From Sphingobacteriaceae bacterium (lineage in GTDB: Bacteria; Bacteroidota; Bacteroidia; UBA7662), in contig JAUXNJ010000012.1 in assembly GCA_030682795.1 (NCBI GenBank), forward strand, positions 1 to 64,000: a stretch of 64,000 nt of DNA, in the 5' to 3' direction. Positions within the stretch are counted from its first letter, which is position 1, and every line of letters starts with the position of its first letter. Both the position numbers and the translations under genes were made by a program. Shown one piece after another: positions 4,577 through 61,442 of the stretch. The notes below the pieces were generated by a model. It was not told the DNA's origin and did no database searches. It saw only the letters and a list, made by a program, of their open reading frames with translations.

Positions 4577-6397
4577 ATGAAAGCAATTTTCAGCACCATG
4601 GCTTTGGTTGTAGGGGGGATGTTGAGCACGCAGGCCCAAACCACTTTACTTGATACCACCATTGCCTTGCAAGATGTAGAAATAGCCGGGGAACGCATTC
4701 AAACCCCATTTTCTCAGTCGGCCCGCAGCATGAACATCCTGCAGCGCAGCGACATCGAACAATTGCCCGCGCAAAATGTAGCCGAAATTTTGAGCTATGT
4801 GCCGGGGGTAGACATCCGCCAGCGCGGTCCCCAAGGCGTGCAAGCCGATGTGGGCATCCGCGGCGGCTCCTTCGACCAAACGCTTGTGCTGCTCAATGGC
4901 ATCAAGCTCAGCGACCCACAAACCGGCCACCATTTGTTGAATTTGGTGGTGCATCCCGATCAAATTGAGCGCATCGAAGTGCTGAAAGGTCCTGGCACCC
5001 GCATCTACGGTCCCAACGCCTTTGCCGGCGCCATCAACATCATTACCAAGCCGGGGGCGCAAAAAGGACTCAGCGGCAGCCTCAGCGGCGGTCAGCATGG
5101 CCTCTACCAAGGCAACCTCGCCCTGCATTTGCCGGTGGGGAAGTGGCAGCAGAGCCTTTCGGCAGGACTCAATGGCTCCTCCGGCTACCGCTTTAATACC
5201 GATTTTAGCATGGCCAATGTGTTTTACGACGCCCAACGGCAGCTCGGCATCCACAAAATATACACCATGGCTGGCTATAACCAGCGTGCTTTTGGCGCCA
5301 ACGGCTTTTATGCCAACGAAAACTTCAAAGATCAATTCGAAAAAACCAAAACCATCTTTGCCGCAGCAGGCTGGAAAATGGGGGAGGGCAATTGGAAAAG
5401 CGATCTGCGGAGCTATTACCGCCAGCACGAAGACGATTATTTTTTCAACCGCGAACGGCCTTCAGACTTCCACAACCACCACATCAGCAGGGTAGGTGGG
5501 GTTGAATGGAACGGTAGCATCGACAACAAGCTCGGTACCTCCGCCTTTGGGGCGGAATGGCGCTACGAAAGCATAGTGAGCAGCAACCTGGGCATCCACC
5601 AGCGCCAAATTGGAGGTTTTTACGGTGAACATCGCTTGTCGGGTAAAAAATGGCAGCTCACGCCCGGCATCTACCTCAATGGCATCAGCGATTATGGCTG
5701 GCGCGCTTATCCGGGGGTGGATGTGGCCTTTTTTCCGGCTAAAGGACTCAATGTGTACGCCAACTTGGCCCAATCGTTTCGGGTGCCGACCTATACCGAT
5801 TTGTATTATCAGAGTCCGGCCAACCTCGGCAACCCCAACCTCTTGCCCGAACAAGCCTGGACCTATGAAATTGGCAGCCGTTATTTCTACAAATCCTTCC
5901 TTTTGAGTGGGGCGGTGTTTGTGCGCGATGCTTCACGACTCATTGAGTGGGTGCGGCCCGACGCCTTAAGTCCGTGGCAGGCCAATAACTTCATTGAAGT
6001 GGTTAGCCGTGGGGCAGAAGCCGAGTTGCAGTACAAGCGCTCCAAAGGCCTGTTGCGCAGTGCACGTATTGGCTATACCTACATCAATGCGGGTTTTGCC
6101 ATCCAGGCCGGCTTCCAATCGCGCTACATCCTCGAAAACCTGCGGCATCAAATGGTGCTGGCGGCGGTGTTGCAATTACCAGCCAAGATCCAAGCCAGCG
6201 CTACCCTCCGCATTTTCGAGCGCATGAACCAAAACGAAGCCTTTGCCATCAGCGATGTGCAATTGTCGCGGAAGTTATGGAAGCAGGGAGAGTTGTTTGT
6301 GCAAGCCACCAATGTGTTCAACACGCCTTACCGCGAAATAGGAACGGTGCCGATGCCGGGTCGTTGGTTGCGGCTCGGACTGCGTTTCCGTCTTTAA
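4577..6397 (+). CDS. TonB-dependent outer-membrane receptor
   Basis: An outer-membrane active transporter that takes up a scarce ligand with energy from TonB. The reading frame is open from 4499, but the ATG at 4577 is preferred because it starts a proper signal peptide (MKAIFSTMALVVGGML, cleavage after STQAQ) and sits right behind a promoter. The mature N-terminus carries a short TonB-box-like stretch followed by the plug domain: QNVAEILSYVPGVDI, GIRGGSFDQT, LLNGIKLSDP, RIEVLKGPG and YGPNAFAGAINIIT. A beta-barrel of about 450 residues follows, ending in aromatic GLRFRL. At about 606 residues it resembles vitamin or siderophore receptors; the ligand cannot be read from sequence. It is convergent with the SDR gene, the two stop codons overlapping. 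Confidence 0.92.
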   Translation: MKAIFSTMALVVGGMLSTQAQTTLLDTTIALQDVEIAGERIQTPFSQSARSMNILQRSDIEQLPAQNVAEILSYVPGVDIRQRGPQGVQADVGIRGGSFDQTLVLLNGIKLSDPQTGHHLLNLVVHPDQIERIEVLKGPGTRIYGPNAFAGAINIITKPGAQKGLSGSLSGGQHGLYQGNLALHLPVGKWQQSLSAGLNGSSGYRFNTDFSMANVFYDAQRQLGIHKIYTMAGYNQRAFGANGFYANENFKDQFEKTKTIFAAAGWKMGEGNWKSDLRSYYRQHEDDYFFNRERPSDFHNHHISRVGGVEWNGSIDNKLGTSAFGAEWRYESIVSSNLGIHQRQIGGFYGEHRLSGKKWQLTPGIYLNGISDYGWRAYPGVDVAFFPAKGLNVYANLAQSFRVPTYTDLYYQSPANLGNPNLLPEQAWTYEIGSRYFYKSFLLSGAVFVRDASRLIEWVRPDALSPWQANNFIEVVSRGAEAELQYKRSKGLLRSARIGYTYINAGFAIQAGFQSRYILENLRHQMVLAAVLQLPAKIQASATLRIFERMNQNEAFAISDVQLSRKLWKQGELFVQATNVFNTPYREIGTVPMPGRWLRLGLRFRL

Positions 6398-49684: not shown

Positions 49685-49692
49685 AATAAATA
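49685..49692 (+). repeat. Left 8-bp target site duplication
   Basis: AATAAATA directly outside the left terminal inverted repeat. The identical 8 bases stand directly outside the right repeat (61435-61442). Confidence 0.8.
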
Positions 49693-49732
49693 GATAATTA
49701 TACCCTAGAGACATGGTAGCCCTTCTTGATAT
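49693..49732 (+). repeat. Left terminal inverted repeat
   Basis: Begins GATAATTATACC, then TAGAGACATGG, GCCCTT and TTGATAT. It matches the reverse complement of 61395-61434 at 36 of 40 positions. The mismatches are at 49705, 49717, 49718 and 49725. Confidence 0.85.
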
Positions 49733-49762
49733 TACGAACCCAGTTCAAAGCCTTTAGATTCA

Positions 49763-50176
49763 TTAGGACTTTATGTATTTGGTTATTTCCAGCATATATC
49801 TCACCTTATTTTCCTCTGATATAAAAGCCGATGGCACTAATCCATTTTGTTCTGAAGAATTTACCCAATCAAATCTTACCTGTCCGCTTTCTTCAATCCG
49901 GCCATACATAAAAGCCTTGGTTACTGGTTTTTTGTGAAATTGGTTGTAAATCTCTTTGCTTCTAACCAGTTCATAAGTTTCTATGTTAGCCCTTCTTCGT
50001 GACATTTCATAACCAACTTCGATTACAAAGGCGTGGCCTCTTATTTTAAATTGCTCTGAATCATCAATTAAGTTTGAAATCAGATTTCCGATTTCCGATT
50101 CTAAGGTTTCATATAATTCATCTTCATCCATGATTCGGATTTTAAGTGGCTTAAAGTCTTTCAATATACAAACCAT
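49763..50176 (-). CDS. Hypothetical transposon cargo protein
   Basis: 137 residues, or 122 if the ATG at 50131 (MDEDELYETLESEIG) is used. Acidic N-terminus, then a mixed alpha/beta body (FKIRGHAFVIEVGYEMSRR, AFMYGRIEESGQVRFDWV). No signal peptide or membrane segment. Not recognised. It is the first gene inside the left end and reads outward, toward the retropepsin-like operon. Confidence 0.55.
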   Translation of the reverse strand: MVCILKDFKPLKIRIMDEDELYETLESEIGNLISNLIDDSEQFKIRGHAFVIEVGYEMSRRRANIETYELVRSKEIYNQFHKKPVTKAFMYGRIEESGQVRFDWVNSSEQNGLVPSAFISEENKVRYMLEITKYIKS

Positions 50177-50306
50177 TTTTATTTTCTCGATATGAACGGG
50201 CCTACCTAGTTTCTTAAATTAAATCAACAGTTGATAACTCGTTTTGGTGTGTCTATTAATTTTTCGTAATATTATGCATTGGAACTAAATCCAATAAACT
50301 AATTAT

Positions 50307-50549
50307 ATGAGCTTTAAAACCGGAGATTTGGTTAATATGAAAGGAGATAAAAACGATGTGATGTCGATCATTGGATTTTTACAATTCTTGAACCAAAATG
50401 TTATAGAAACTAACTCAAATCCAGAAAGAAGAGATTGGGTTCTATGTGTTTTCTTGAACGATAAACAAAATAGAACTATTTTCCACAGAGACCAATTAGA
50501 GTTGTATTCTTCGGATATAGACGGAGGAACGCCTAATTCACATCCATAA
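50307..50549 (+). CDS. DUF2158/YodC-like small protein
   Basis: 80 residues. It starts FKTGDLVNMKG and has a central WVLC and the end FHRDQLELY. This is the layout of the small DUF2158 (YodC-like) family, a beta-barrel-like domain of unknown role. It is related to the protein at 54351-54584, sharing GDxV, KG, GFL, WVxC and FHRDQLE in the same order. The tail SSDIDGGTPNSHP is disordered. Confidence 0.6.
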   Translation: MSFKTGDLVNMKGDKNDVMSIIGFLQFLNQNVIETNSNPERRDWVLCVFLNDKQNRTIFHRDQLELYSSDIDGGTPNSHP

Positions 50550-50568
50550 AGACTTCAATTATAAAGCC

Positions 50569-50718
50569 ATGTCAGATAAAGATAAATCTCAGCCAAGACC
50601 TGCGCCAAGACCAGATCCGAATCCAAGACCAAAAGGGAGAGAAGCCTACGAAAGTGAACGACCGGGTGGAGGAACGAGAGGTGGTGACAGAGTGCCAACC
50701 GTTCGGCCTAAAAAATGA
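50569..50718 (+). CDS. 49-residue Pro/Arg-rich small protein
   Basis: ATG at 50569, 19 bp after the previous stop. The product is highly basic and Pro-rich (QPRPAPRPDPNPRP, then PGGGTRGGDRVPTVRP, ending KK). No fold is predicted. Its stop overlaps the end of the opposite-strand membrane gene by about 11 bp. Probably co-transcribed with the DUF2158-like gene. Function unknown; coding status is supported by the clean frame and placement only. Confidence 0.45.
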   Translation: MSDKDKSQPRPAPRPDPNPRPKGREAYESERPGGGTRGGDRVPTVRPKK

Positions 50719-51181
50719 TAGCAAAGAAAATTATCATCATTGTCAACCCAATCCCCATAAATACTAGACTTAAAACATTCAGAGTTCGAGTATAGGTTGA
50801 ATATTTATCGCTCAAATCATTATGTTTTTCGATTTGACATGATTCTTCTCGTGAGGGTTTCTTCCCTGCCTGAAGTTCATAATTACACATTAACATGTCA
50901 TGCAGGTTCGATTTTTTACCTGTCATCTGACTTATAAGATTCAGAGTTATAGAAAAAACTAAGATTATACCGCTTGACTTTACCATCCATAAAGAGTCAA
51001 GAGGATGTTCTACAGAAAATTTCAGTACTTCAAGGTCCACATAGATCCCTGCACCACTTATAGCTATAATCAATAAATCAATTCTTTGAATTGCATAAAA
51101 CCATCCGTGGTGCGAAAGTCTGTAACGTTCCTTGATTAAATAGTTGCTCATTCCCATGAATTTGGTAATCGAAAATAACAA
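50708..51181 (-). CDS. Small membrane protein, possibly SLATT-like
   Basis: 157 residues (the start could also be the ATG at 51157 or 51151). The order is: basic helix YLIKERYRLSHHGWFYAIQRID, then membrane segments LLIIAISGAGIYVDL and SSGIILVFSITLNLI, a charged helical region, and a C-terminal membrane segment VLSLVFMGIGLTMMIIFFAII. This pattern resembles SLATT-type membrane effectors of bacterial immune systems, but the similarity is weak and by eye. Not otherwise recognised. Confidence 0.5.
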   Translation of the reverse strand: MLFSITKFMGMSNYLIKERYRLSHHGWFYAIQRIDLLIIAISGAGIYVDLEVLKFSVEHPLDSLWMVKSSGIILVFSITLNLISQMTGKKSNLHDMLMCNYELQAGKKPSREESCQIEKHNDLSDKYSTYTRTLNVLSLVFMGIGLTMMIIFFAIIF

Positions 51182-51246
51182 GTATTTGTGACTTTGTTAC
51201 ATTATATATTTCGTGATTAATTATACAACTTTAGCTTATTTATAAG

Positions 51247-51555
51247 TCAATAATCCTTTCTAGCGAATAGAAATAAGTCATATCTCATTATATCATCCAT
51301 AGATGGTAACCATGCTTCATTACCCTCCTTAATCAATAAACCATCATTGGTCGTGATTCTTGCCTCTTCAGGAAAATCTAGAATGAACAGTTCATCTTCC
51401 TTATTTATTACAGCTTTCAAACCAGACCATCCAAACGGGTTATCTCCATTATTTTTGCCGAGATCAATTAAACCTACGACTCTTGCCGACTTCACCCAGT
51501 CGATGTTACTTTTCATATCGAGATGGATTACATCTCCGCTAGCATATATTTTCAT
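51247..51555 (-). CDS. Hypothetical protein
   Basis: 102 residues, soluble, acidic. The start MKIYASGDVIHLDMK suggests a small beta-rich domain, followed by WLPSMDDIMRYDLFLFARKDY. Not recognised. Lies on the minus strand with the neighbouring cargo genes. Confidence 0.5.
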   Translation of the reverse strand: MKIYASGDVIHLDMKSNIDWVKSARVVGLIDLGKNNGDNPFGWSGLKAVINKEDELFILDFPEEARITTNDGLLIKEGNEAWLPSMDDIMRYDLFLFARKDY

Positions 51556-51601
51556 AATGTGGTGGTATTATTTGCATCTTCAATGCTAAATCTGTCAGAA
51601 T

Positions 51602-51802
51602 TCAATTACTTGGGGTTTTAGCAAATAATTTTTGACGCTTTATTTCCTCGATCTGAGAACTAGCGCTTGATAAGATTTCTGACAATTCATAGTAATGGTC
51701 CCTGCCAACATGATTATTGTCCGCATTGTAAGCGTTCATGATTGCATTTCGCACAACATTGATAGCTTTTTCTAATGATTTTATATTGTTCTCAGGTATC
51801 AT
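51602..51802 (-). CDS. Small helical hypothetical protein
   Basis: 66 residues, almost fully helical (NNIKSLEKAINVVRNAIMNAY, YYELSEILSSASSQIEEIKRQ). No membrane segment. Lies 46 bp upstream of the previous gene on the same strand. Not recognised; short, so only moderate support. Confidence 0.42.
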   Translation of the reverse strand: MIPENNIKSLEKAINVVRNAIMNAYNADNNHVGRDHYYELSEILSSASSQIEEIKRQKLFAKTPSN

Positions 51803-51863
51803 TTTTTGATATATCAGTTAGTTAAAATTTATACAGATTTAACTTCAATCTGCTCTTCCAGTT

Positions 51864-52379
51864 TCAATGCAAATCCTTTTGAAAGTCCATAGCAGGCTTC
51901 AGTTTTAGTTTATTTGATTTAGTGGTTCCATATTTACTACTGACCACAAATACTTGAATTTTATTTAAATCCCCATTGTTTATAGCATTTATTATGCTTG
52001 AATCAGAAATAGTGAATGACTCAGAATAACTTTGGGTAAAATCGAATTTAGAATTGGTTAAATGCCACCAACCACAAGCAAAAAGCTGCTCTACAATTGG
52101 TGAGGATGGAGCAGGGTTGCTTCGAATCGTGTCGCTAATTTTTATTTTAATCTGGTTTATTATGAAAAGTTCCTGACTAGTGCTTTCACATTTCACATAG
52201 AGATTAAAATGATCCTTACTTCTCCCATCTAATTTAATTACCACTTTGAATTCATTGGTAAAATAATTCCTTATATCAGAACGTATTTTTAAATAGAATA
52301 GAAGTGCCGTGGTTATTACTACAATTAATGTGGAAATGATAGTTGGATCGACAGATAATTGACAAAGTTGGATGCACAT
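51864..52379 (-). CDS. Hypothetical protein with N-terminal membrane anchor
   Basis: 171 residues. One membrane segment near the N-terminus (about 13-31, TIISTLIVVITTALLFYL) is followed by a soluble beta-rich domain (FKVVIKLDGRSKDHFNLYVKC, IQVFVVSSKYGTTKSNKLKLKP). Not recognised. It belongs to the minus-strand run of cargo genes, several of which encode membrane proteins. Confidence 0.5.
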   Translation of the reverse strand: MCIQLCQLSVDPTIISTLIVVITTALLFYLKIRSDIRNYFTNEFKVVIKLDGRSKDHFNLYVKCESTSQELFIINQIKIKISDTIRSNPAPSSPIVEQLFACGWWHLTNSKFDFTQSYSESFTISDSSIINAINNGDLNKIQVFVVSSKYGTTKSNKLKLKPAMDFQKDLH

Positions 52380-52460
52380 ATTATTTCCTTTTAACTTTTA
52401 AACAGACTTGCTTCTTTATTTCATATAGTCAATTATACACTACCTAGGTAATCCGAAATT

Positions 52461-52640
52461 CTATTTCTCTTTTTTATCCTCGGAAGTTTTTGAGGATTTT
52501 TCAGAATCCTTTACGAAGGCTTGTGCCCTTCTTCCTTTGGATAATGGCTGTTGAGAATGTTCATTTTGTATTGTTGGCTTCAATACAATTTTAGGCTTGT
52601 TGCCACTATCATTGTCCTTTTCTTGATCTTCTTTGCTCAT
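52461..52640 (-). CDS. 59-residue charged, disordered small protein
   Basis: ATG at 52640 overlaps the TGA of the preceding membrane gene in the classic ATGA arrangement (52637-52640), a strong sign of coupled translation. The product is Lys/Glu/Ser-rich and likely disordered (MSKEDQEKDNDSGNKPK ... SKTSEDKKEK). It contains PTIQNEH, which echoes PTIQNES in the C-terminal tail of that membrane protein. This suggests a duplicated tail or a shared binding motif. Function unknown. Confidence 0.55.
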   Translation of the reverse strand: MSKEDQEKDNDSGNKPKIVLKPTIQNEHSQQPLSKGRRAQAFVKDSEKSSKTSEDKKEK

Positions 52641-53314
52641 TTCTTTCCAGAATTTTCATGTAAGCGGTCATGAACTACCTCTTGGGTTATAGGATAATCA
52701 TGGTTGGAATCAGTTCTGCTCTCATTTTGGATAGTAGGGCTTTTATGTATCACAGATTTTCCCTGTTCTATATTCTCCAGAGGAGCATAGTCGTTTTCGT
52801 TTTCAGCCATTTTCGTATATGTTAAAAGAGGAGTATAAAGTAAAAATACAAAAATTATTGATTTCAACATGTCGGCGACTATAGCTTTTTTTCTGCTGTA
52901 AACTTCTTGGTTAAATTCTATCGCATCTTCAAGCAAAGTTAAATACGCAATCTTAATTTCATCTTCAAGTTTCTTTTGTTCAGAAATCTCTTCATTTTGA
53001 TTAAATTGAGAATAAACATTTTTTGGAATTGGATCGACATGAATGCCTTTTAGCCAAATGAGTTGGCAAAAAAAGTAAAAGGTCATCAATACTACTAAAA
53101 CCAAGATGATTGCAGAAAATTGAAAAAATGAGGCACTCGTAGCTGAGTTTATAGCAAGGATAATTATTTCAAAAATGCCGGTACCAAGCATAGCAACATA
53201 TGCAAAGAAAAACGCATAGTAGTTCTCTATTCGTTTATATTGCTCAAATTGCTCTCTGATCCTTTGTCGGTTTAGAGAAATTTTACTGTCCAAATCAAAA
53301 TTGAATTTTTCCAT
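52637..53314 (-). CDS. Three-helix membrane protein with disordered cytosolic tail
   Basis: About 225 residues from the ATG at 53314 (MEKFNFDLDSKI); an earlier ATG at 53347 exists. A charged helix (RQRIREQFEQYKRIENYY) leads into two membrane segments (FFFAYVAMLGTGIFEIIILA, FQFSAIILVLVVLMTFYFF). Then come a helical loop of about 70 residues, a third segment (SIIFVFLLYTPLL) and a hydrophilic tail with KSPTIQNES. The topology is reminiscent of small phage-defence membrane effectors, but no family is recognised. Overlaps the 59-residue gene by 4 bp. Confidence 0.55.
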   Translation of the reverse strand: MEKFNFDLDSKISLNRQRIREQFEQYKRIENYYAFFFAYVAMLGTGIFEIIILAINSATSASFFQFSAIILVLVVLMTFYFFCQLIWLKGIHVDPIPKNVYSQFNQNEEISEQKKLEDEIKIAYLTLLEDAIEFNQEVYSRKKAIVADMLKSIIFVFLLYTPLLTYTKMAENENDYAPLENIEQGKSVIHKSPTIQNESRTDSNHDYPITQEVVHDRLHENSGKK

Positions 53315-53401
53315 TTCAATTAATATTGCAGTTTTTGTTGATACCAAATTAGATAAAGATTTGCAAAATAGACTATCAGTTTTTAGTCTATTTTATCTTA
53401 T

Positions 53402-54190
53402 TTATGGCTTATAAGTTTTTTCTGAATTTAGCTTGCCTTTAGAAGATGTTTGTCCAAATTCAGTAAAAAGTCTGTCAAGATCAACATCAGCTTCATTTAG
53501 TATTTTTATTAGACATGGAAAAAAGACAACGCCGCTTTGAGAAGATATATCCATGATTTTATTTAATATTTCTTTCGACAGATTTACTAAGCTCTTTGGT
53601 CTGACAAAATATGGTTTACGACTATTTTCTAAACCCCAAAAAAAGATATGTCCATTAAATTTAATTCGACCATTCTTTACGGAATAAACAAAGAAGGGTT
53701 CGTTTGATTTTGTTATCCTTAGTGATTGTGGTCTGAGAACCACAGAATCATCAATATTCAATTTGATACGCTTTAAAAGCTTAATCTTCTTTTTCTTAAA
53801 GTAAATTATATCCTCCGGAAAAATATCTGCTTTACCGCTAATTAAGAAACAATTGTGCCGCCCTAATTTACCTAGATTGATTCTATCACTAAACATCTTT
53901 TTTTCAAATACTTCAGCAATTTGTTTATCTAGTTGATTTATTAGTGGCTCAACCAAGCCCCTAGGGATTTCAAGAAGAGTAATATATTGTTTTTCTACGT
54001 TTGTATTAGCTTGACGAGTTAAATGCATATCTGCAACGCCAGACTTTCTTCCATAATGTACGGTTAAATGGTATTTAGGAGTTAGACCAATAGTGGTCAA
54101 TTCTTTTCCTTCATATATGAAAAATGGCTGGATATCCTGTGGCAATGTCAGTATATGACTACCATTAAATCCTTCTAGAAACTCTATCAA
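53402..54190 (-). CDS. Hypothetical protein
   Basis: 262 residues, soluble, Lys-rich. Sections such as KYHLTVHYGRKSGVADMHLTR and VVLRPQSLRITKSNEPFFVYS suggest a mixed alpha/beta protein. No motif that I recognise. First gene of the minus-strand run leading to the membrane pair, 55-90 bp upstream of it. Confidence 0.5.
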   Translation of the reverse strand: MIEFLEGFNGSHILTLPQDIQPFFIYEGKELTTIGLTPKYHLTVHYGRKSGVADMHLTRQANTNVEKQYITLLEIPRGLVEPLINQLDKQIAEVFEKKMFSDRINLGKLGRHNCFLISGKADIFPEDIIYFKKKKIKLLKRIKLNIDDSVVLRPQSLRITKSNEPFFVYSVKNGRIKFNGHIFFWGLENSRKPYFVRPKSLVNLSKEILNKIMDISSQSGVVFFPCLIKILNEADVDLDRLFTEFGQTSSKGKLNSEKTYKP

Positions 54191-54210
54191 AATGAAAATG
54201 TAGATACAAT

Positions 54211-54396
54211 ATGGAACAACTAAATATTTCGGAATCCTTTATGGATACGATTGATAAATTGGATAAATTACGTCAAATCATAAAAAAAGGAGAATCAGAC
54301 GGTCGGTTAGTTTCGAATATCGACCGTCTGATTGCCAAACTGATAAGAGATCAACTGAAAAAATCGTCGTCTTCATCTGATGCCGGTTCTAATTGA
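54211..54396 (+). CDS. Possible 61-residue protein (doubtful)
   Basis: A short helical ORF (MDTIDKLDKLRQIIKKGESDG) starting 20 bp from the divergent gene. It runs across a strong hairpin that looks like the terminator of the opposite-strand gene at 54351 and overlaps that gene by 46 bp. It may be an accidental frame. Confidence 0.28.
   Translation: MEQLNISESFMDTIDKLDKLRQIIKKGESDGRLVSNIDRLIAKLIRDQLKKSSSSSDAGSN
54281..54333 (-). terminator. Likely terminator of the DUF2158-like gene at 54351
   Basis: A perfect 13-bp inverted repeat: AATCAGACGGTCG (54293-54305) and CGACCGTCTGATT (54321-54333), with a 15-nt loop. On the minus strand it follows the stop at 54351 by 17 bp, and a run of seven T comes 4 nt after the stem. 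Confidence 0.6.
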
Positions 54397-54584
54397 TCTC
54401 TGTGAAAGACTTCATATTTATATACTTCGGCTTCTGGTGCCCAGTATTGACAAACCACCCATTCACTCTGTGTAGAAGTAGTATTTAGGTTGATAGATGC
54501 TCCTCTTTCCACTAAAAAACCGTGTACAGAAAGTTCTTGTCTGAATCCTTTTCGTGTCACAACGTCTCCAATTTTGATTTCCAT
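54351..54584 (-). CDS. DUF2158/YodC-like small protein (second copy)
   Basis: 77 residues: IKIGDVVTRKG, GFLVERG, SEWVVCQYWAP, FHRDQLEPASDEDDDFF. Same order of motifs as the 50307-50549 protein, so the two are distant paralogues on one element. The acidic tail is probably disordered. Lies upstream of a clear hairpin terminator. Confidence 0.62.
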   Translation of the reverse strand: MEIKIGDVVTRKGFRQELSVHGFLVERGASINLNTTSTQSEWVVCQYWAPEAEVYKYEVFHRDQLEPASDEDDDFFS

Positions 54585-54676
54585 AAGTTTAAATTTAGAT
54601 TGTCAGGGTTGCAACTTACGTGCCAAGTCAAAATCCTAGACAAATCTCTGCCGTTATGACATTAGCCTCCGGTATA

Positions 54677-54886
54677 TCACATCAGTTCTGACATATTGAC
54701 ACCCAAGCCGTTAGCCAGTTCCTTCAGATACAAATACGATGGATTGATTTTTCCGGCTTCTACTCGCTGAATGCTCGGTTGGTCTTTGTTTATGCTATGG
54801 GCAAGGTCAGTTTGGGACATGCCTTTTTCCATACGAATGGCCCTTATCCTTTGACCTAGGTTTTCAAGCTCCTTTTTCTTGTCCAT
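54677..54886 (-). CDS. XRE-family helix-turn-helix regulator
   Basis: 69 residues, a single Cro/C1-type HTH: LGQRIRAIRMEKGMSQTDLAHSINKDQPSIQRVEAGKINPS. It consists of the DNA-binding domain only. Divergent from the lipoprotein operon, with a perfect palindrome in the shared promoter region, so it probably represses itself and that operon. Confidence 0.88.
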   Translation of the reverse strand: MDKKKELENLGQRIRAIRMEKGMSQTDLAHSINKDQPSIQRVEAGKINPSYLYLKELANGLGVNMSELM

Positions 54887-54934
54887 CTCACATTATTCCA
54901 AGATGGAAGGTGAGATTATGCTCACAAAAAACTC

Positions 54935-54975
54935 ATAACGGATACGTTATAATTAAGCAGAAATTTTTACTTTTG
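54935..54975 (+). promoter_or_regulatory. Palindromic operator plus promoter of the lipoprotein operon
   Basis: A perfect palindrome, ATAACG-GATA-CGTTAT, occupies 54935-54950. An exact -7 box, TACTTTTG, is at 54968-54975. The palindrome lies about where the -33 element should be, so a bound XRE dimer would block polymerase. Confidence 0.55.
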
Positions 54976-54997
54976 GTACGAATCAAATAAGCTGATA

Positions 54998-55765
54998 ATG
55001 AAAATTATACTCAAAAGCCATTACCTAATTGGTCTCCTTTTCTTAATCTCCTGTTCAGGAGGAAACGTTCGTTCGGTGGTAATCGAAGTCAAACCTGAGC
55101 GCACCAGCATTTCTGGATCATTAAGTAAATACATCGAAATTATAGATGATATCTATGAATTTGAGCACGAATACACCTCATCACTTGCGATTAGGGTAAA
55201 GGTGCTTGAGATTATGGACCCAAAAATCTTAAAGGGAATGCGACCAGTTTTAGCGGTTTCCATGCTTTCTGAGAATGGAGTCCCTATCGCAAGCATACAA
55301 AGGTTAGAAATTGATTATCAGTCAAAAAACACATTACAAGAAATACTAGCTATTGGAGAGGGTGAATGCATCATCTATTTCACTTCGAATTTAGGAACGC
55401 CTTCAAAAGAGCAACTTAAAAAATTAAAGCTTTTTACTGTGACAAGTTCTTTAGAAGATTATGAAGTTAACTCTCAAGACCTTACAGCAGAGACAGAAAC
55501 AGAAGAAGCTTCGAGCAATCAATATGACCAGGCGATTGATGAACTGGAAATTGCAGTAAATGATGCAACCAAAATGATGAAAAAGTATAACAGTGGAGAT
55601 TATGACAACGCATTAACCGACTATACAAAGATGATGTCTCGGATTCAAAAAGCTTCAATTAAGCTTAGTTCTGCTGAAGGTGAATTATCAGACGATCAAA
55701 TGGAGAGAATTGCGAAACTCCAAATCAAATTAGCAAAAATCCAAGGAACTCAACTTAAACAATAA
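54998..55765 (+). CDS. Lipoprotein with C-terminal helical DUF6591-like region
   Basis: 255 residues with a lipoprotein signal (HYLIGLLFLISC). A beta-rich domain (about 25-150) is followed by an acidic linker and a C-terminal helical region (AIDELEIAVNDATKMMKKYNSG, DYDNALTDYTKMMSRIQKA). That region resembles DUF6591 of Bacteroidota lipoproteins; the match is by eye. First gene of a three-gene operon (1- and 2-bp gaps) behind the XRE-controlled promoter. Confidence 0.68.
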   Translation: MKIILKSHYLIGLLFLISCSGGNVRSVVIEVKPERTSISGSLSKYIEIIDDIYEFEHEYTSSLAIRVKVLEIMDPKILKGMRPVLAVSMLSENGVPIASIQRLEIDYQSKNTLQEILAIGEGECIIYFTSNLGTPSKEQLKKLKLFTVTSSLEDYEVNSQDLTAETETEEASSNQYDQAIDELEIAVNDATKMMKKYNSGDYDNALTDYTKMMSRIQKASIKLSSAEGELSDDQMERIAKLQIKLAKIQGTQLKQ

Positions 55766-55766
55766 T

Positions 55767-56084
55767 ATGAATAAATCTAAACAATTACCCAACTCCGTTG
55801 CAGTCCTAATTTTAGGTATCTGCTCAATTCTATTCGGCTGCTTTTTAATCGGTCTCGTTTTAGGTATTTTAGGCATAGTCCTTTCGGGCAAAGGGCGAAG
55901 ACTATACCGAGATGAACCCGAAGTGTATGAAGGATATGGCCTTTTGAATGCAGGGTATATCATGTCAATCATCGGTGTGGTTATATCTAGCCTCTGGATC
56001 ATCTATTTTGTCATTTATGTGGTAATCATGGGAGGTTTGCTAATGGGTATTGGCAATCTGAATGAATACTTAGATTCGTTCTAA
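55767..56084 (+). CDS. CCC-motif/DUF4190-like membrane protein
   Basis: 105 residues with three or so membrane segments (SVAVLILGICSILFGCFLIGLVLGILGIVLS, NAGYIMSIIGVVISSLWIIYFVIYVVIMGGLL). The stretch LSGKGRRLYRDEP between helices is typical of this small Bacteroidota family. Function unknown. One base after the lipoprotein stop. Confidence 0.75.
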   Translation: MNKSKQLPNSVAVLILGICSILFGCFLIGLVLGILGIVLSGKGRRLYRDEPEVYEGYGLLNAGYIMSIIGVVISSLWIIYFVIYVVIMGGLLMGIGNLNEYLDSF

Positions 56085-56086
56085 CA

Positions 56087-56356
56087 ATGCTGCCTTGCGC
56101 TTATAAAGTGCTTTTTGATATGGATTGTCCTATTTGCGGTTTTCAAAGGTCGCTGCATCTTTTACTAGATGGACAAATTGGTGGAAGCATTGCGATGTTT
56201 CCACCAATTTTAGTGATGGTAGCTTATGGGGCGATTCTGTTTTTGTATTTGTATAATCCAGTATTGGTTGGAAAAAGAATGCTCAAAGCATCCTCCATAG
56301 CTACGTTGTGTGCTGTTTTTTTGAGTTACTTCATGAAACTTCTATTTATTTTATAA
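56087..56356 (+). CDS. DUF2752 domain membrane protein
   Basis: 89 residues. The Cys-rich N-terminus CAYKVLFDMDCPICGFQRSLHLLLDG matches DUF2752 (CPxCGxxRA-type). Two hydrophobic segments follow. It often occurs next to CCC-motif membrane proteins, as here (2-bp gap). Function unknown. Confidence 0.82.
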   Translation: MLPCAYKVLFDMDCPICGFQRSLHLLLDGQIGGSIAMFPPILVMVAYGAILFLYLYNPVLVGKRMLKASSIATLCAVFLSYFMKLLFIL

Positions 56357-56430
56357 GCATCTATTGACTTGACAGCTTGCTGTCGCTTCACCCTTTGTTG
56401 GATGATTCGGTAACCTAAGCGATTTTTTGC

Positions 56431-56463
56431 AATCACTGATGCATGAGAGGTGTATCAGTGATT
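56431..56463. repeat. Perfect hairpin over the first transposase start
   Basis: AATCACTGAT (56431-56440) and ATCAGTGATT (56454-56463) form a 10-bp stem. The ATG at 56443 lies in the loop and the early codons in the 3' arm. There is no T-run on either strand, so it is not a terminator. Confidence 0.6.
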
Positions 56464-57333
56464 CAGTATGAAAGGCGTTTTGGTCACAGCGACCAGTGCC
56501 TTCAATATCTTTTTGAGCAAAAAACTAAAGATCAAACGCAGTGCCCAAAGTGCGTCCGGAAATTTAGATTTCATCCTGTCAAAGGGAGAAAATGCTTCGA
56601 ATGTGCAAGCTGTGGATATCAAATTTATCCGATGAAGAATACCATATTTGAAGGAAGTACCACAAGTCTGGTACTTTGGTTTAAGGTAATTTATATGTTC
56701 TATACTTCGAGAAATGGTGTTAGTGCCAAACAGATAGAGAGAGTGTGTGGTGTCACATACAAAACTGCATGGCGCATGGGTCAAAAGGTAAGGAGTCTCA
56801 TGTCACTTGAATCCGAAGAAATGCTGAGCGGTATAATCGAAATGGATGAATCATATTTTGGAGGGAAGAAGCCACTCAACAAGAATGGCAAAAAGGGCAT
56901 TGGTGATAAGCAGATAGTATTTGGTATGTTGGAACGTGGTGGGCGTGCAAAGGTGTTTTACCTGAAAAATAGAGATAAAAAGACACTGCTACCTGTTGTA
57001 GCCAGCTGTATCAAGAAGGGTTCTACCATTTATAGTGATGGATATGGGGTATATCAGCATCTATCAGCAATGGGATACACGCACGAAGTTGTTAAACATA
57101 AGCGTAGCAAGAGATTCATTGCTGGTGTCTGGACCAATGGAATTGAGAGCTTATGGTCCTACATTAAAAGTCCTTTATTAGGAACATACAGAAGTGTAAG
57201 CAATAAATATTTACAATCCTACCTAGATGAATTCGTATTTCGATACAATTTCAACAAACAAGGCGACTGGTTGGAGGTCATTCTTTACCGAGCAACATGT
57301 CTGCCGACTTCTTGGAATCAAAGGTCTCTTTGA
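56443..57333 (+). CDS. IS1595-family (ISXO2-like) transposase, copy 1
   Basis: 296 residues. An N-terminal zinc ribbon (Cys34, Cys37, Cys51, Cys54, Cys57) is followed by a helical DNA-binding part (NGVSAKQIERVCGVTYKTAWRMGQK) and the ISXO2 catalytic domain. Catalytic residues are all present: Asp135 (EMDESYFGG), Asp199 (YSDGYGVY), His214 and Asn232/Glu235 (TNGIESLW). The last 16 residues (after LEVIL) extend beyond the usual family end and overlap the opposite-strand gene by 56 bp. This may mean the original 3' end was altered. It aligns along its full length with the second transposase but is clearly diverged. Confidence 0.9.
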   Translation: MRGVSVIQYERRFGHSDQCLQYLFEQKTKDQTQCPKCVRKFRFHPVKGRKCFECASCGYQIYPMKNTIFEGSTTSLVLWFKVIYMFYTSRNGVSAKQIERVCGVTYKTAWRMGQKVRSLMSLESEEMLSGIIEMDESYFGGKKPLNKNGKKGIGDKQIVFGMLERGGRAKVFYLKNRDKKTLLPVVASCIKKGSTIYSDGYGVYQHLSAMGYTHEVVKHKRSKRFIAGVWTNGIESLWSYIKSPLLGTYRSVSNKYLQSYLDEFVFRYNFNKQGDWLEVILYRATCLPTSWNQRSL

Positions 57334-57628
57334 CTTCTTCGGTAAAATCCATGCTATCTGGGTGAAGTCCTAACTCTGCCAGTTTTTCGGTGTAGGCTTT
57401 TCTCGCTTCTTCTACTTCCCCTGAATGTTTAAAGTGAACGGAGGTCGAAGTTCCATTGACTTCTCCATCCTGAATTATTGGTGTGAATCCGCTAGTAAAC
57501 CGAAGAACAACAACGTAAGTCTTATCTTCTGGTAGTGCTGCAGATTCAAAAAGTGGTATTCTGATCATAACGTCATTTTCTCTATGTATCTGGCATGAAA
57601 AGTTTGGCACGGCCTTTGTTATTTGCAT
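57278..57628 (-). CDS. Hypothetical protein between the two transposases
   Basis: 116 residues, or 96 from the ATG at 57568 (MIRIPLFESAALPEDK). Soluble: a beta-rich half (TYVVVLRFTSGFTPII) and a helical, acidic half (EEARKAYTEKLAELGLHP). Not recognised. It overlaps the end of transposase 1 by 56 bp, and its ATG lies 3 bp from that of transposase 2 on the other strand. There is thus no room for separate insertion-sequence ends between the two transposase genes. Confidence 0.5.
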   Translation of the reverse strand: MQITKAVPNFSCQIHRENDVMIRIPLFESAALPEDKTYVVVLRFTSGFTPIIQDGEVNGTSTSVHFKHSGEVEEARKAYTEKLAELGLHPDSMDFTEEVKETFDSKKSADMLLGKE

Positions 57629-57631
57629 GGT

Positions 57632-58483
57632 ATGAGATTTACAATATCAGATTTTCAGAAACGCTTTCCAACAAATGAGATTTGTATGGAGACCATCTTC
57701 AAGATCCGTTACTCAAACATGGAAGCTTGTCCTAAATGTGGGGTTGTCCACCCCAAGTATTACAGGGTTAAGGCTCGTAACTGTTATGAATGTGGAGATT
57801 GCGGTCACCAAATATATCCACTGGTTGGGACTATAATGGAAGGAACGACTACACCACTTACCGACTGGTTTTTTGCAATGTATTTATTCTCGGTGTCCAA
57901 AAATGGCGTTAGTGCCAAAGAGCTGCAAAGAAGCCTCGGAGTGACATATAAAACCGCTTGGAGGATAGGTCACAAAATCAGAGACCTGATGAATGACAAG
58001 CAAGACAAACTCCTTAAAGGAATAGTAGAGGTAGATGAATCCCTGATAGGTGGCAAAGTCAAAGGTGGCAAGCGTGGTTGGGGTGCAGAAAATAAGACTT
58101 GTTTATTCGGTATGATCGAGAGAGACGGCGGTGTTAAGGTCTCGGTAATTGAAGAACGCACACGGGAAGCAATCTATAATGAAATCAACAGCGGTGTTGC
58201 CAAGGGGAGTACAGTGTATAGTGATGAATTCAAGGCATACAAAACATTGTCTACTCAAGGATACATCCAAGGCTCAGTTGTCCACTCGAAAAATCAGTGG
58301 AAAGATGGCGATTGTCATACAAATTCAATCGAAGGCTATTGGTCCAATCTGAAGAAATCAATACTAGGCACCCATACCCATATCAGCAAAAAGCACATGC
58401 ATCGATATCTGAATGAATTCGCATTCCGCCACAATAACCGGAAAGGCAATATTTTTGAAGAAATGCTAAAGCAGATAAACTAA
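57632..58483 (+). CDS. IS1595-family (ISXO2-like) transposase, copy 2
   Basis: 283 residues from the ATG at 57632; an in-frame TTG three codons earlier is less likely. The zinc ribbon is Cys33, Cys36, Cys51, Cys54, Cys57. The catalytic domain has Asp135 (EVDESLIGG), Asp198 (YSDEFKAY), His229 and Asn231/Glu234 (TNSIEGYW). It ends normally at EEMLKQIN. Intact by sequence. It overlaps the next, opposite-strand gene by 4 bp, again leaving no space for its own terminal repeats. The outer 40-bp repeats are therefore the best candidate ends. Confidence 0.92.
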   Translation: MRFTISDFQKRFPTNEICMETIFKIRYSNMEACPKCGVVHPKYYRVKARNCYECGDCGHQIYPLVGTIMEGTTTPLTDWFFAMYLFSVSKNGVSAKELQRSLGVTYKTAWRIGHKIRDLMNDKQDKLLKGIVEVDESLIGGKVKGGKRGWGAENKTCLFGMIERDGGVKVSVIEERTREAIYNEINSGVAKGSTVYSDEFKAYKTLSTQGYIQGSVVHSKNQWKDGDCHTNSIEGYWSNLKKSILGTHTHISKKHMHRYLNEFAFRHNNRKGNIFEEMLKQIN

Positions 58484-58944
58484 TTTTTTAGTTGTTCTTT
58501 AAAATTCAAAGGTTTAAAATTAACAAACCAACCTATAAGCCCAGCTATAAGCATCAAGAAGGAAAGTATAATTCCTATTAAAGCATAACACCTTATTCTA
58601 CTTAATTGCCTATCCAATGTTTCTATTTTCTTCGCTTCAAAAATTATACGAATACTGGTATCATCAAATAACTTCTTCTGCTTTTTGATATCTTCAAATC
58701 TCTCAACAAATTTTTCTTCTGAAAGCGAATCTTTCTGCAATTCGAGTACGCTAAGGTTGAATTGGATGCTTTTAAGCTCAACATTCAAAAGAGCGGTATC
58801 TTTTTGAAGATCAATAGTATGTAATTCTAATAAATTCTGTTTTTCGATTGGTAAATAAATTGAAGCCAGCAGAGCGAAAATGCCACCAAGAAACAAATAT
58901 TTGAATAGATTTTCGCTATTAGCAAATGGTGAAAAAGGGTCCAT
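58480..58944 (-). CDS. Two-helix membrane protein with central coiled coil
   Basis: 154 residues. An N-terminal membrane segment (LFKYLFLGGIFALLASIYL) is followed by about 85 residues of charged heptad-like helix (IDLQKDTALLNVELKSI, LSEEKFVERFEDIKKQKKLFD). A second segment comes at the end (CYALIGIILSFLMLIAGLIGWFV). Its ATG follows the stop of the PUA/EVE-like gene by 5 bp, so the two are one operon. No family recognised. Confidence 0.58.
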   Translation of the reverse strand: MDPFSPFANSENLFKYLFLGGIFALLASIYLPIEKQNLLELHTIDLQKDTALLNVELKSIQFNLSVLELQKDSLSEEKFVERFEDIKKQKKLFDDTSIRIIFEAKKIETLDRQLSRIRCYALIGIILSFLMLIAGLIGWFVNFKPLNFKEQLKN

Positions 58945-58949
58945 AGTCT

Positions 58950-59885
58950 TTAATTTTTATTATTTATTGGCATACTTAATTCCAACATCCTTTGATTAAG
59001 TGAATCAGAGGCAGGTCTGTATAATTTGTATAATTCTTGGGATTCAACAGGCTTGGTTGCCCTTTCTTCAGGACTACATGAAGATAGCTGTAACATGATA
59101 GAAAGAATTAATAAGGATTGACCGACTTTAATAATTTCTGCCAACCCCTTTGATTGCACATTGATTTTTATAAATATTTGATCTATATCTTCATTTAGTT
59201 CAAAATCTTCATTGATTCTTTTTAATAATATGCGGAACTCCGATACGAATTCATTGAATGATACCAAATTGAGTTCGTTATGTGTGGTGTGGTTCAATAT
59301 GAGGTGGCTTCTCGATCCTCTAACGAATAAAGGGTACATCACTCTGTCAATATACGGATTATAATTCGAAACATCTGTAATTGCTGACCACATTGGTCTA
59401 AATTTAAGGAATTTAGAGTCGAGGTCTTTGAAATCAACTTTTGTAATCCAACTCACTTTCCTTCTCTTGCTGTAACTACAATCATTTCCAGTTTCAGTGA
59501 AAATTTCGTCATCGTTTATTTCGCCGAACGCCATAATCTCACCACCTGCTGAAGGAATTATTACCACATCTCCGAACTTCATATTTTGAAACAATTTAAT
59601 CTTATTTAGCGTGGACGTTACTAGCGATTTCCCTTTCGCAGTAGATAAATCAGCTCCCCGTTGCCCAATATCAGGATCTTTTGAAATCATAAGTTTTATT
59701 TCTTCTACACTTTTGTTCTGTAGTACATTGGTAGTGATTGTATTCCACCCTATTCCAACAAAACCATTTTCAACAAAAGTGTGGAAGTTTTGCCCTTTGT
59801 CAGTTCTAATGAGCCAATATTTGGTTTTATCGGATATATTAGCTATTTCAATATTAAGACGCTCTAATCTAATCGGAGTCTGCAT
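58950..59885 (-). CDS. PUA/EVE-like sensor-domain protein with C-terminal membrane segment
   Basis: 311 residues. The first ~160 residues resemble the EVE/PUA-like modules found in front of restriction or effector domains: YWLIRTDKGQNFHTFVENGFVGIGWN, then FQNMKFGDVVIIPSAGGEIMAFGEI. These modules often read modified bases. A middle helical part (NELNLVSFNEFVSEFRILLKR) leads to a hydrophobic segment (VGQSLLILSIMLQLSSC) and a hydrophilic tail. No nuclease motif is visible. It is paired with the coiled-coil membrane gene 5 bp downstream. I suspect a defence-type sensor/membrane pair; this is inference from domain style and context. Confidence 0.55.
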   Translation of the reverse strand: MQTPIRLERLNIEIANISDKTKYWLIRTDKGQNFHTFVENGFVGIGWNTITTNVLQNKSVEEIKLMISKDPDIGQRGADLSTAKGKSLVTSTLNKIKLFQNMKFGDVVIIPSAGGEIMAFGEINDDEIFTETGNDCSYSKRRKVSWITKVDFKDLDSKFLKFRPMWSAITDVSNYNPYIDRVMYPLFVRGSRSHLILNHTTHNELNLVSFNEFVSEFRILLKRINEDFELNEDIDQIFIKINVQSKGLAEIIKVGQSLLILSIMLQLSSCSPEERATKPVESQELYKLYRPASDSLNQRMLELSMPINNKN

Positions 59886-60126
59886 GTCTAGTTCATAAGT
59901 TTAGTTGTGTCAAAGTTATATTAAAAGCGTGACTAAAAGAAAAGTTTGGTTTCCGAGGATAAATGTCTAATTTTACCACCAAGTTAGCATGATTGAAGAT
60001 TCAATCGACTGATTAAATCTGCTTGATATAAATACCACTTTTGGGCATCGATTCTCTAGTGGGAGACCTGCTGATTCAAATATATCGCAATAGGCATATT
60101 GTTAAATTTAATAGAACCCCTTGGCC

Positions 60127-60363
60127 ATGGTGAAACAACTGTTTACAAAAAATGAAACAGATTTAATGAGTCAAATTGATGAAGAAGTCGTAATGATGTC
60201 TAAGGAATTAGATGTAACTTTAAAAAAGGTACAATCGGATTTACATAGTAATGAGGCTGATCAACATATAGCTAAAGCTCTTACGATTCACACAAATATT
60301 CATCTTCGAATAAAAGATAAATCCGATATAATCTCTCACGCATTGCGCAGACGTGATGCTTAA
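60127..60363 (+). CDS. Small helical hypothetical protein
   Basis: 78 residues from the ATG at 60127; an in-frame TTG two codons earlier is unlikely. Helical, acidic then basic (DEEVVMMSKELDVTLKKVQSDL, ISHALRRRDA). Not recognised. A 240-bp non-coding stretch with no clear feature lies upstream of it. Confidence 0.42.
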   Translation: MVKQLFTKNETDLMSQIDEEVVMMSKELDVTLKKVQSDLHSNEADQHIAKALTIHTNIHLRIKDKSDIISHALRRRDA

Positions 60364-60451
60364 AGATGAATTATATTTTCGATAGTCAAGGAATTAATCA
60401 ACGTATACCATGGTAGATAAAATTCATTGAATGAAACATCAAAATTTGAAA

Positions 60452-60482
60452 TAAATAAAAAGAGGGGGTTACGACCCCCTCT
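60452..60482 (-). terminator. Terminator of the 38-residue gene
   Basis: AGAGGGGGT (60461-60469) pairs with ACCCCCTCT (60474-60482). On the minus strand the stem is followed by TTTTTATTT. It lies 9 bp past the stop codon at 60491. Confidence 0.82.
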
Positions 60483-60490
60483 AAAACCAA

Positions 60491-60607
60491 TTACTTCTTA
60501 GTTGGTTTGTTTGGTGTAGACCTATAATGAGGATCTACTTTGGTGCCGTCCTTCTTTTCATGTGGGTGGACGTACACCTTCTTCTTGCCTTCTTCGGTCT
60601 TTGCCAT
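60491..60607 (-). CDS. 38-residue basic small protein
   Basis: ATG at 60607, stop at 60491, followed at once by a strong terminator. The product is Lys-rich (AKTEEGKKKVYVHPHEKKDG, then DPHYRSTPNKPTKK). The VHPHEKKDGTKVDPHYRS section resembles a small recurrent bacterial pattern (HxxxDGTxVxxHxR) seen in short hypothetical proteins; function unknown. The dedicated terminator supports that it is expressed. Confidence 0.55.
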   Translation of the reverse strand: MAKTEEGKKKVYVHPHEKKDGTKVDPHYRSTPNKPTKK

Positions 60608-60661
60608 TGAATTAAAGATTAGAAGTTAAACATGCTCCAACACCAAGCCGTGGGAGTATCG

Positions 60662-60698
60662 GCTAAGCCCCTGTTACAGCAGGGGCTTTGTGTTTTAA
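60662..60698 (+). terminator. Hairpin with T-rich tail, no obvious gene upstream
   Basis: AAGCCCCTG (60665-60673) pairs with CAGGGGCTT (60680-60688), followed by TGTGTTTT on the plus strand. The nearest plus-strand gene ended 300 bp earlier, so it may end a small RNA or a long 3' UTR. The 224 bp between 60608 and 60831 otherwise show no gene. Confidence 0.45.
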
Positions 60699-60831
60699 AC
60701 ATACAAAGATCCAAATAATTCCAAATTGAGAATCTTTTTTATTTTGGGACTTTTGTACAAAATTGTGGATAACTTTCTTTTTGAGCGAATTTATCGGAGG
60801 AACCTAAACAATCATCGTTTATATAAAGGAA

Positions 60832-61395
60832 ATGAAACTGATTACATTTCCTCGTTATTCAGAGACTAAGAAAGAAAGGTTCTTCTACTTGCTATCTTAT
60901 TTGCAATATCAAGTTATCCGTATCTTCAGGAGGAATAAAACCCCCGAGTATATGAGATACATTGAACAGCAAAACCGCTTGGTCCAAAAGCGAATCGGAC
61001 TCTTAACCGAATTAAAGGAATTTATGGAAAGCGAAGATGATAATCGGCATTTCGAAATGTTTAATGGAATTGATCTGAATGGAAAGCTTGGATTTGAGTT
61101 CAAATTTGGAGAACACCATTTTGCGATTATCGGTAAAATCGGAGTTTTGATCAACGCAATCATTTTTGAAACATGGATGTATGTTGACGACAATGAAAGC
61201 ATCTACAGGTATAAAAAGGGACTTCACTTGAAGGAGTTGGACTTCACATTGGACTCCAAGTGCACAAGTGGGAGACCCAGATTAATTTCAAAAGAAAAAC
61301 ATGAATATTTCGAGCCTGATTATTGTAACGAGCTTTTAAGAGCTATACATAGATATGAATTGAGGTGGTTTAGTGATGGAAATGTGCCTTCCTGA
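60832..61395 (+). CDS. Hypothetical protein
   Basis: 187 residues. A basic N-terminus (FPRYSETKKERFFYLLSYLQYQVIRIFRRNK) that could lie on a membrane is followed by a helical then beta-rich domain (LGFEFKFGEHHFAIIGKIGVLINAIIFETW). Not recognised. It is the last cargo gene, and its stop touches the right terminal inverted repeat. Confidence 0.52.
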   Translation: MKLITFPRYSETKKERFFYLLSYLQYQVIRIFRRNKTPEYMRYIEQQNRLVQKRIGLLTELKEFMESEDDNRHFEMFNGIDLNGKLGFEFKFGEHHFAIIGKIGVLINAIIFETWMYVDDNESIYRYKKGLHLKELDFTLDSKCTSGRPRLISKEKHEYFEPDYCNELLRAIHRYELRWFSDGNVPS

Positions 61396-61434
61396 TATCA
61401 AAAAGGGCATCCATGTCTCTATGGTATAATTATC
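61395..61434 (-). repeat. Right terminal inverted repeat
   Basis: Ends GGTATAATTATC at 61434. As reverse complement it aligns with 49693-49732 at 36 of 40 positions. Confidence 0.85.
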
Positions 61435-61442
61435 AATAAATA
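61435..61442 (+). repeat. Right 8-bp target site duplication
   Basis: AATAAATA directly outside the right inverted repeat, identical to 49685-49692. Confidence 0.8.

Follow-up and report, generated by a model that had tools for sequence, protein, structure and literature searches.

The IS1595 family of insertion sequences includes the ISPna2, ISH4, IS1016, IS1595, ISSod11, ISNwi, and ISNha5 groups, whose members usually carry a single transposase gene and are flanked by 8-bp target duplications (PMC8101967). Mobilizable transposons that bear cargo are also known in this family, namely, MTnSag1 and tISCpe8, in which an IS1595 transposase moves the cargo and which have inverted repeats and 8-bp duplications; the available part of the source on them mentions no second transposase (PMC5704250). 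More than one transposition protein is found in Tn7-like elements, which, according to the available part of their description, also have large cargo that is frequently defensive (PMC8649781).

We analyzed a stretch of 64,000 nucleotides (hereafter, the window) from contig JAUXNJ010000012.1 of a Sphingobacteriaceae bacterium, in which positions 49693 to 61434 make up one transposon. This element has the transposase domain, the zinc ribbon (found in all groups but IS1016), the type of ends, and the 8-bp duplication of the IS1595 family, but two intact transposase genes, here termed tnpA and tnpB, lie between its one pair of ends. Since a single gene is the usual trait of the family (PMC8101967), we regard it as an IS1595-type variant rather than a typical insertion sequence. 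It resembles MTnSag1 and tISCpe8 in its cargo, inverted repeats, and 8-bp duplication but differs from them in its second transposase; no relaxase family was recognized among those of its proteins that were scanned. It likewise shares with the Tn7-like elements a large cargo and the presence of more than one transposition protein; however, both of its proteins are paralogues of one DDE transposase, whereas the transposition proteins of Tn7-like elements have different tasks and no relationship to one another. Several paralogous recombinases adjacent to each other in a fixed order are found in the recombinase-in-trio (RIT) elements, but these are tyrosine recombinases, not DDE transposases. With moderate confidence, we read the window element as a single cargo-carrying IS1595 transposon in which both transposases have long been kept, with TnpB as the main transposase and TnpA as its partner or modulator.

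Ends and cargo of the window element

The terminal inverted repeats (TIRs) and the target duplication were located first by eye and then by script. The left TIR (49693 to 49741, + strand) and the right TIR (61386 to 61434, − strand) are identical at 41 of 49 positions and are flanked by perfectly matching copies of the 8-bp sequence AATAAATA (49685 to 49692 and 61435 to 61442), a duplication of the length expected for the IS1595 family. Starting with relatives recovered in protein searches, dozens of single-transposase elements were delimited by an automatic search for inverted repeats accompanied by an exact 8-bp duplication. A TIR matrix (consensus GGCAATTATCCCTTGACAAC) was built from 27 single-transposase relatives, with both the window element and the Hymenobacter element described below left out. 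Over the whole 64 kb, the two top-scoring sites of this matrix are the left (17.3 bits) and right (13.9 bits) ends of the window element, and these ends are of the IS1595 family type.

The element forms a low-GC island (0.29 to 0.44, versus 0.43 to 0.51 in the host flanks) that is absent from two genomes of the same genus (G001 and G002), in the second of which the host genes from both sides of the island are no more than about 240 bp apart. The TIRs, the AATAAATA duplication, and the G002 genome lacking the island therefore define an element of 11,742 bp that includes everything between its ends. The two-transposase element is present in a single copy in its genome, and its TIR was not found in 60 related genomes (its own aside) or in the viral contig collection. 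By using the matrix together with the duplication, we delimited 37 relatives of 1.3 to 4.6 kb, less than half the length of the window element in every case; all 37 have one transposase, as counted by tblastn with four queries.

The left part of the cargo (49763 to 54584) consists mostly of low-GC ORFs with no assigned family, the majority on the − strand, and those that were scanned gave no match in Pfam or PADLOC. It is followed by a small regulator gene (54677 to 54886, − strand; Pfam HTH_3, 2.1e-14), a DUF6591-like lipoprotein gene (54998 to 55765, + strand; Pfam, 9.8e-6, just under the curated cut-off), and two small membrane-protein genes (55767 to 56356, + strand; MpPF26, 2.4e-13, and DUF2752, 3.6e-11). 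The right part (58480 to 61395) includes a gene (58950 to 59885, − strand) whose first half matches PDC-S02, a candidate defence family, in PADLOC (1.6e-17). The cargo is thus made up mostly of unknown genes, with one PDC-S02-like gene among them.

The two transposases and the gene between them

A prior reading of the window, made from the sequence only, had taken tnpA (56443 to 57333, + strand; 296 aa) and tnpB (57623 to 58483, + strand; first in-frame ATG at 57632) for two IS1595 transposases that do not stem from a recent duplication; both points are borne out, and the encoded proteins are full length. Each protein matches the Pfam DDE_Tnp_IS1595 domain (6.7e-40 for TnpA and 2e-39 for TnpB) and the NCBIfam IS1595 equivalog domain. 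The four zinc-ribbon cysteines are conserved in both, the Pfam ribbon match being 1.8e-9 in TnpB and 2.5e-5 in TnpA (24.6 bits, just under the cut-off of 25.4). Asp135, Asp199, Asn232-x-x-Glu235, and Lys242 of TnpA are among the conserved residues of the family, and of the near-invariant columns, TnpA keeps 23 of the 23 with at least 95% conservation and 36 of the 37 with at least 90%. Since the two proteins are only 41% identical over 278 aa, they are not products of a recent duplication. An alignment-based structure model of TnpA (pLDDT 90.8), made after an earlier model built with 6 sequences had proved poor, is confident almost throughout and least so at the C-terminal end; a sequence search of the PDB recovered no relative, and the entries retrieved by fold, which were other DDE transposases and integrases, all matched weakly. 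In the 3.1-Mb genome, the only other IS1595 transposase found is a distant copy (L003:1468-2406) located directly upstream of a lepA-like gene.

The start codon of tnpA is covered by a hairpin (56431 to 56463, + strand) with 10-bp arms (56431 to 56440 and 56454 to 56463). Its predicted stability of −20.8 kcal/mol (z = −5.65) was reached by none of 200 shuffles, and the same fold analysis found no such hairpin around the start of tnpB.

Between the two transposases, an ORF of 116 aa lies on the opposite strand (57278 to 57628, − strand). It has no recognizable family and no relatives in the 60 related genomes, the genome contig collection, or the viral contig collection; its codon usage gives a coding score in its own frame and negative scores in the five others, which supports its being a real gene. 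It overlaps tnpA by 56 bp, so that the C-terminal tail of TnpA runs into it, and its ATG is 3 bp from the first ATG of tnpB, which in turn overlaps its downstream neighbor by 4 bp. With the genes packed in this way around the middle gene, as had been described from the sequence, there is no room for private ends around either transposase. The further claim that the element has no internal ends also holds with the TIR matrix: the best site inside the element scores 8.3 bits, which is less than the lowest-scoring training end (13.0 bits) and is exceeded by four chance sites in other parts of the window, and so lies within the chance range. Neither the matrix nor a repeat search found a nested insertion with private repeats, the case that the sequence-only reading had named as its own refutation.

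These observations bear on the view that two IS1595 elements came to lie side by side or one within the other, that their inner ends decayed, and that tnpA is now a passenger with no role, which we consider unlikely. Adjacent IS1595 copies do occur, as in a viral contig (L098) where one of two neighboring IS1595 transposases is bounded by its own pair of ends, and both the long branch of TnpA (see below) and the reading of its tail into the middle gene would fit such an origin. However, no trace of inner ends is seen with the TIR matrix, a full open frame with all near-invariant residues would be unlikely for a relic so diverged, and the same gene order, with the same family upstream, recurs in Hymenobacter.

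An ordered transposase pair in Hymenobacter

The closest relative of TnpB (56% identity) is encoded in Hymenobacter sp. ASUV-10 (locus L108) and is here termed H2. A further IS1595 transposase gene, H1, is located upstream of it in the same orientation, and between the two is a small antisense ORF that also scores as coding; H1 and H2 are the only IS1595 matches in that genome. The two best matrix sites at this locus form a 28-nt inverted repeat (at 5954 and 15641; 16.3 bits each) of the family type, bounding an element of 9,688 bp with a GC content of 0.52, versus 0.61 and 0.64 in the flanks. No target duplication was found at these ends, which are therefore placed by the repeats by themselves. 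At the left end, part of the repeat is also present a second time, as an inverted copy that faces inward (L108:5954-6013).

The gene order is common to both elements: a DUF6591 lipoprotein gene precedes the two transposases, and a small antisense ORF separates the first transposase from the second. DUF6591 has one copy in the window genome and two in the Hymenobacter genome, and in each genome a single copy precedes the pair. The antisense ORFs show no detectable homology to each other (local score of 21, within shuffles), and the cargo differs between the elements apart from DUF6591. That of the Hymenobacter element (L108:10868-15212) includes E1/JAB, E2/multiubiquitin, DUF6527, and a HigA/PD-Lambda-2-like gene, a gene content that suggests defence cargo. 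Of the 37 near-invariant columns with at least 90% conservation, H1 keeps 35, and like TnpA it has intact catalytic residues and an intact zinc ribbon. A two-transposase, cargo-carrying variant of the IS1595 transposon is common to these two lineages.

A search for other elements with the same ordered pair, which the sequence-only reading had proposed, thus yielded this one, and with two cases found in all, the pair is rare. No further close ordered pair was recovered from about 395 genomes of the phylum, 395 of the class, 204 of the Hymenobacter family, and 390 of the Hymenobacter order, in whole-genome searches of sampled collections, run at thresholds strict enough that one member of a weaker pair might have escaped detection. 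Four pairs from viral contigs (L065, L090, L098, and L107) were rejected, as their members are distant, on opposite strands, divergent, or include a truncated copy and belong to different clades. A literature search that lay mostly outside subscription journals returned no description of an IS1595 element with two transposases.

Origin and possible roles of the two transposases

In the phylogenetic tree, TnpB and H2 are sisters (support of 100/97) and, by this placement, are orthologues. H1 joins their clade (93/82; 99/96 in a reduced set), and TnpA sits on a long branch without a secure place. Going by branch lengths (1.37 and 1.03 for the first copies versus 0.55 and 0.50 for the second), the first copies evolve faster, with about twice the branch length of the second copies. 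TnpA and H1 have 8 rare residues in common, but up to 8 are shared with other family members, so this count does not decide whether TnpA and H1 are orthologues. The grouping of H1 with TnpB and H2, with TnpA elsewhere, would be expected if each lineage had separately acquired a first transposase beside orthologous second ones. We regard this as rather unlikely, as the AU test rejects neither a clade of TnpA and H1 (P = 0.365) nor a clade of all four (P = 0.368), both first copies are long branched, and DUF6591 lies upstream in both elements. The sequence-only reading had allowed for one copy being taken over from a different element, and this may accordingly apply to one lineage, as the tree and the AU tests leave the orthology of TnpA and H1 unsettled.

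The ordered pair in Hymenobacter, the DUF6591 gene upstream in both elements, and the intact residues of the first copies argue for long co-retention and hence for a function of both proteins. There is thus probably a reason why neither copy was lost, and we infer that both proteins are maintained by selection. Of the cooperation suggested earlier, this co-retention fits the general idea, of which a heteromer would be one possible form. The near identity of the two ends speaks against a scheme of one protein per end, which has no support in the sequence. That there is a lineage of large IS1595 transposons that requires two paralogous DDE transposases as a mixed complex, analogous to cargo transposons with several transposition proteins and perhaps for the transposition of long cargo, strikes us as improbable.

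In the reading that we favor, the pair would date from a common ancestor of the two elements, in which an old duplication or an acquisition produced it, and would have been kept since. TnpB, the slower-evolving copy, would act as the main transposase on both ends, and TnpA, catalytically intact in its sequence, would recognize the same ends and join or modulate the TnpB complex. The hairpin that covers the start of tnpA may curb translation of TnpA from outside transcripts; it resembles the sequestered start sites with which other insertion sequences hold down the transposase made from such transcripts. The same hairpin suggests tight dosage control and, with the faster evolution of both first copies, is also compatible with a TnpA that is no longer productive and binds the same ends to restrain TnpB, in the manner of truncated transposases elsewhere. 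However, the catalytic residues and the zinc ribbon are intact in both TnpA and H1, whereas known restraining paralogues are usually truncated or devoid of catalytic residues, and we find such a purely regulatory role doubtful.

What has been seen twice is the pairing of intact, long-diverged paralogues within long cargo elements that include defence-like genes. The pair offers a compact test of whether the work of a simple DDE transposase can be divided between two proteins, and it also bears on whether such a split goes with larger cargo.
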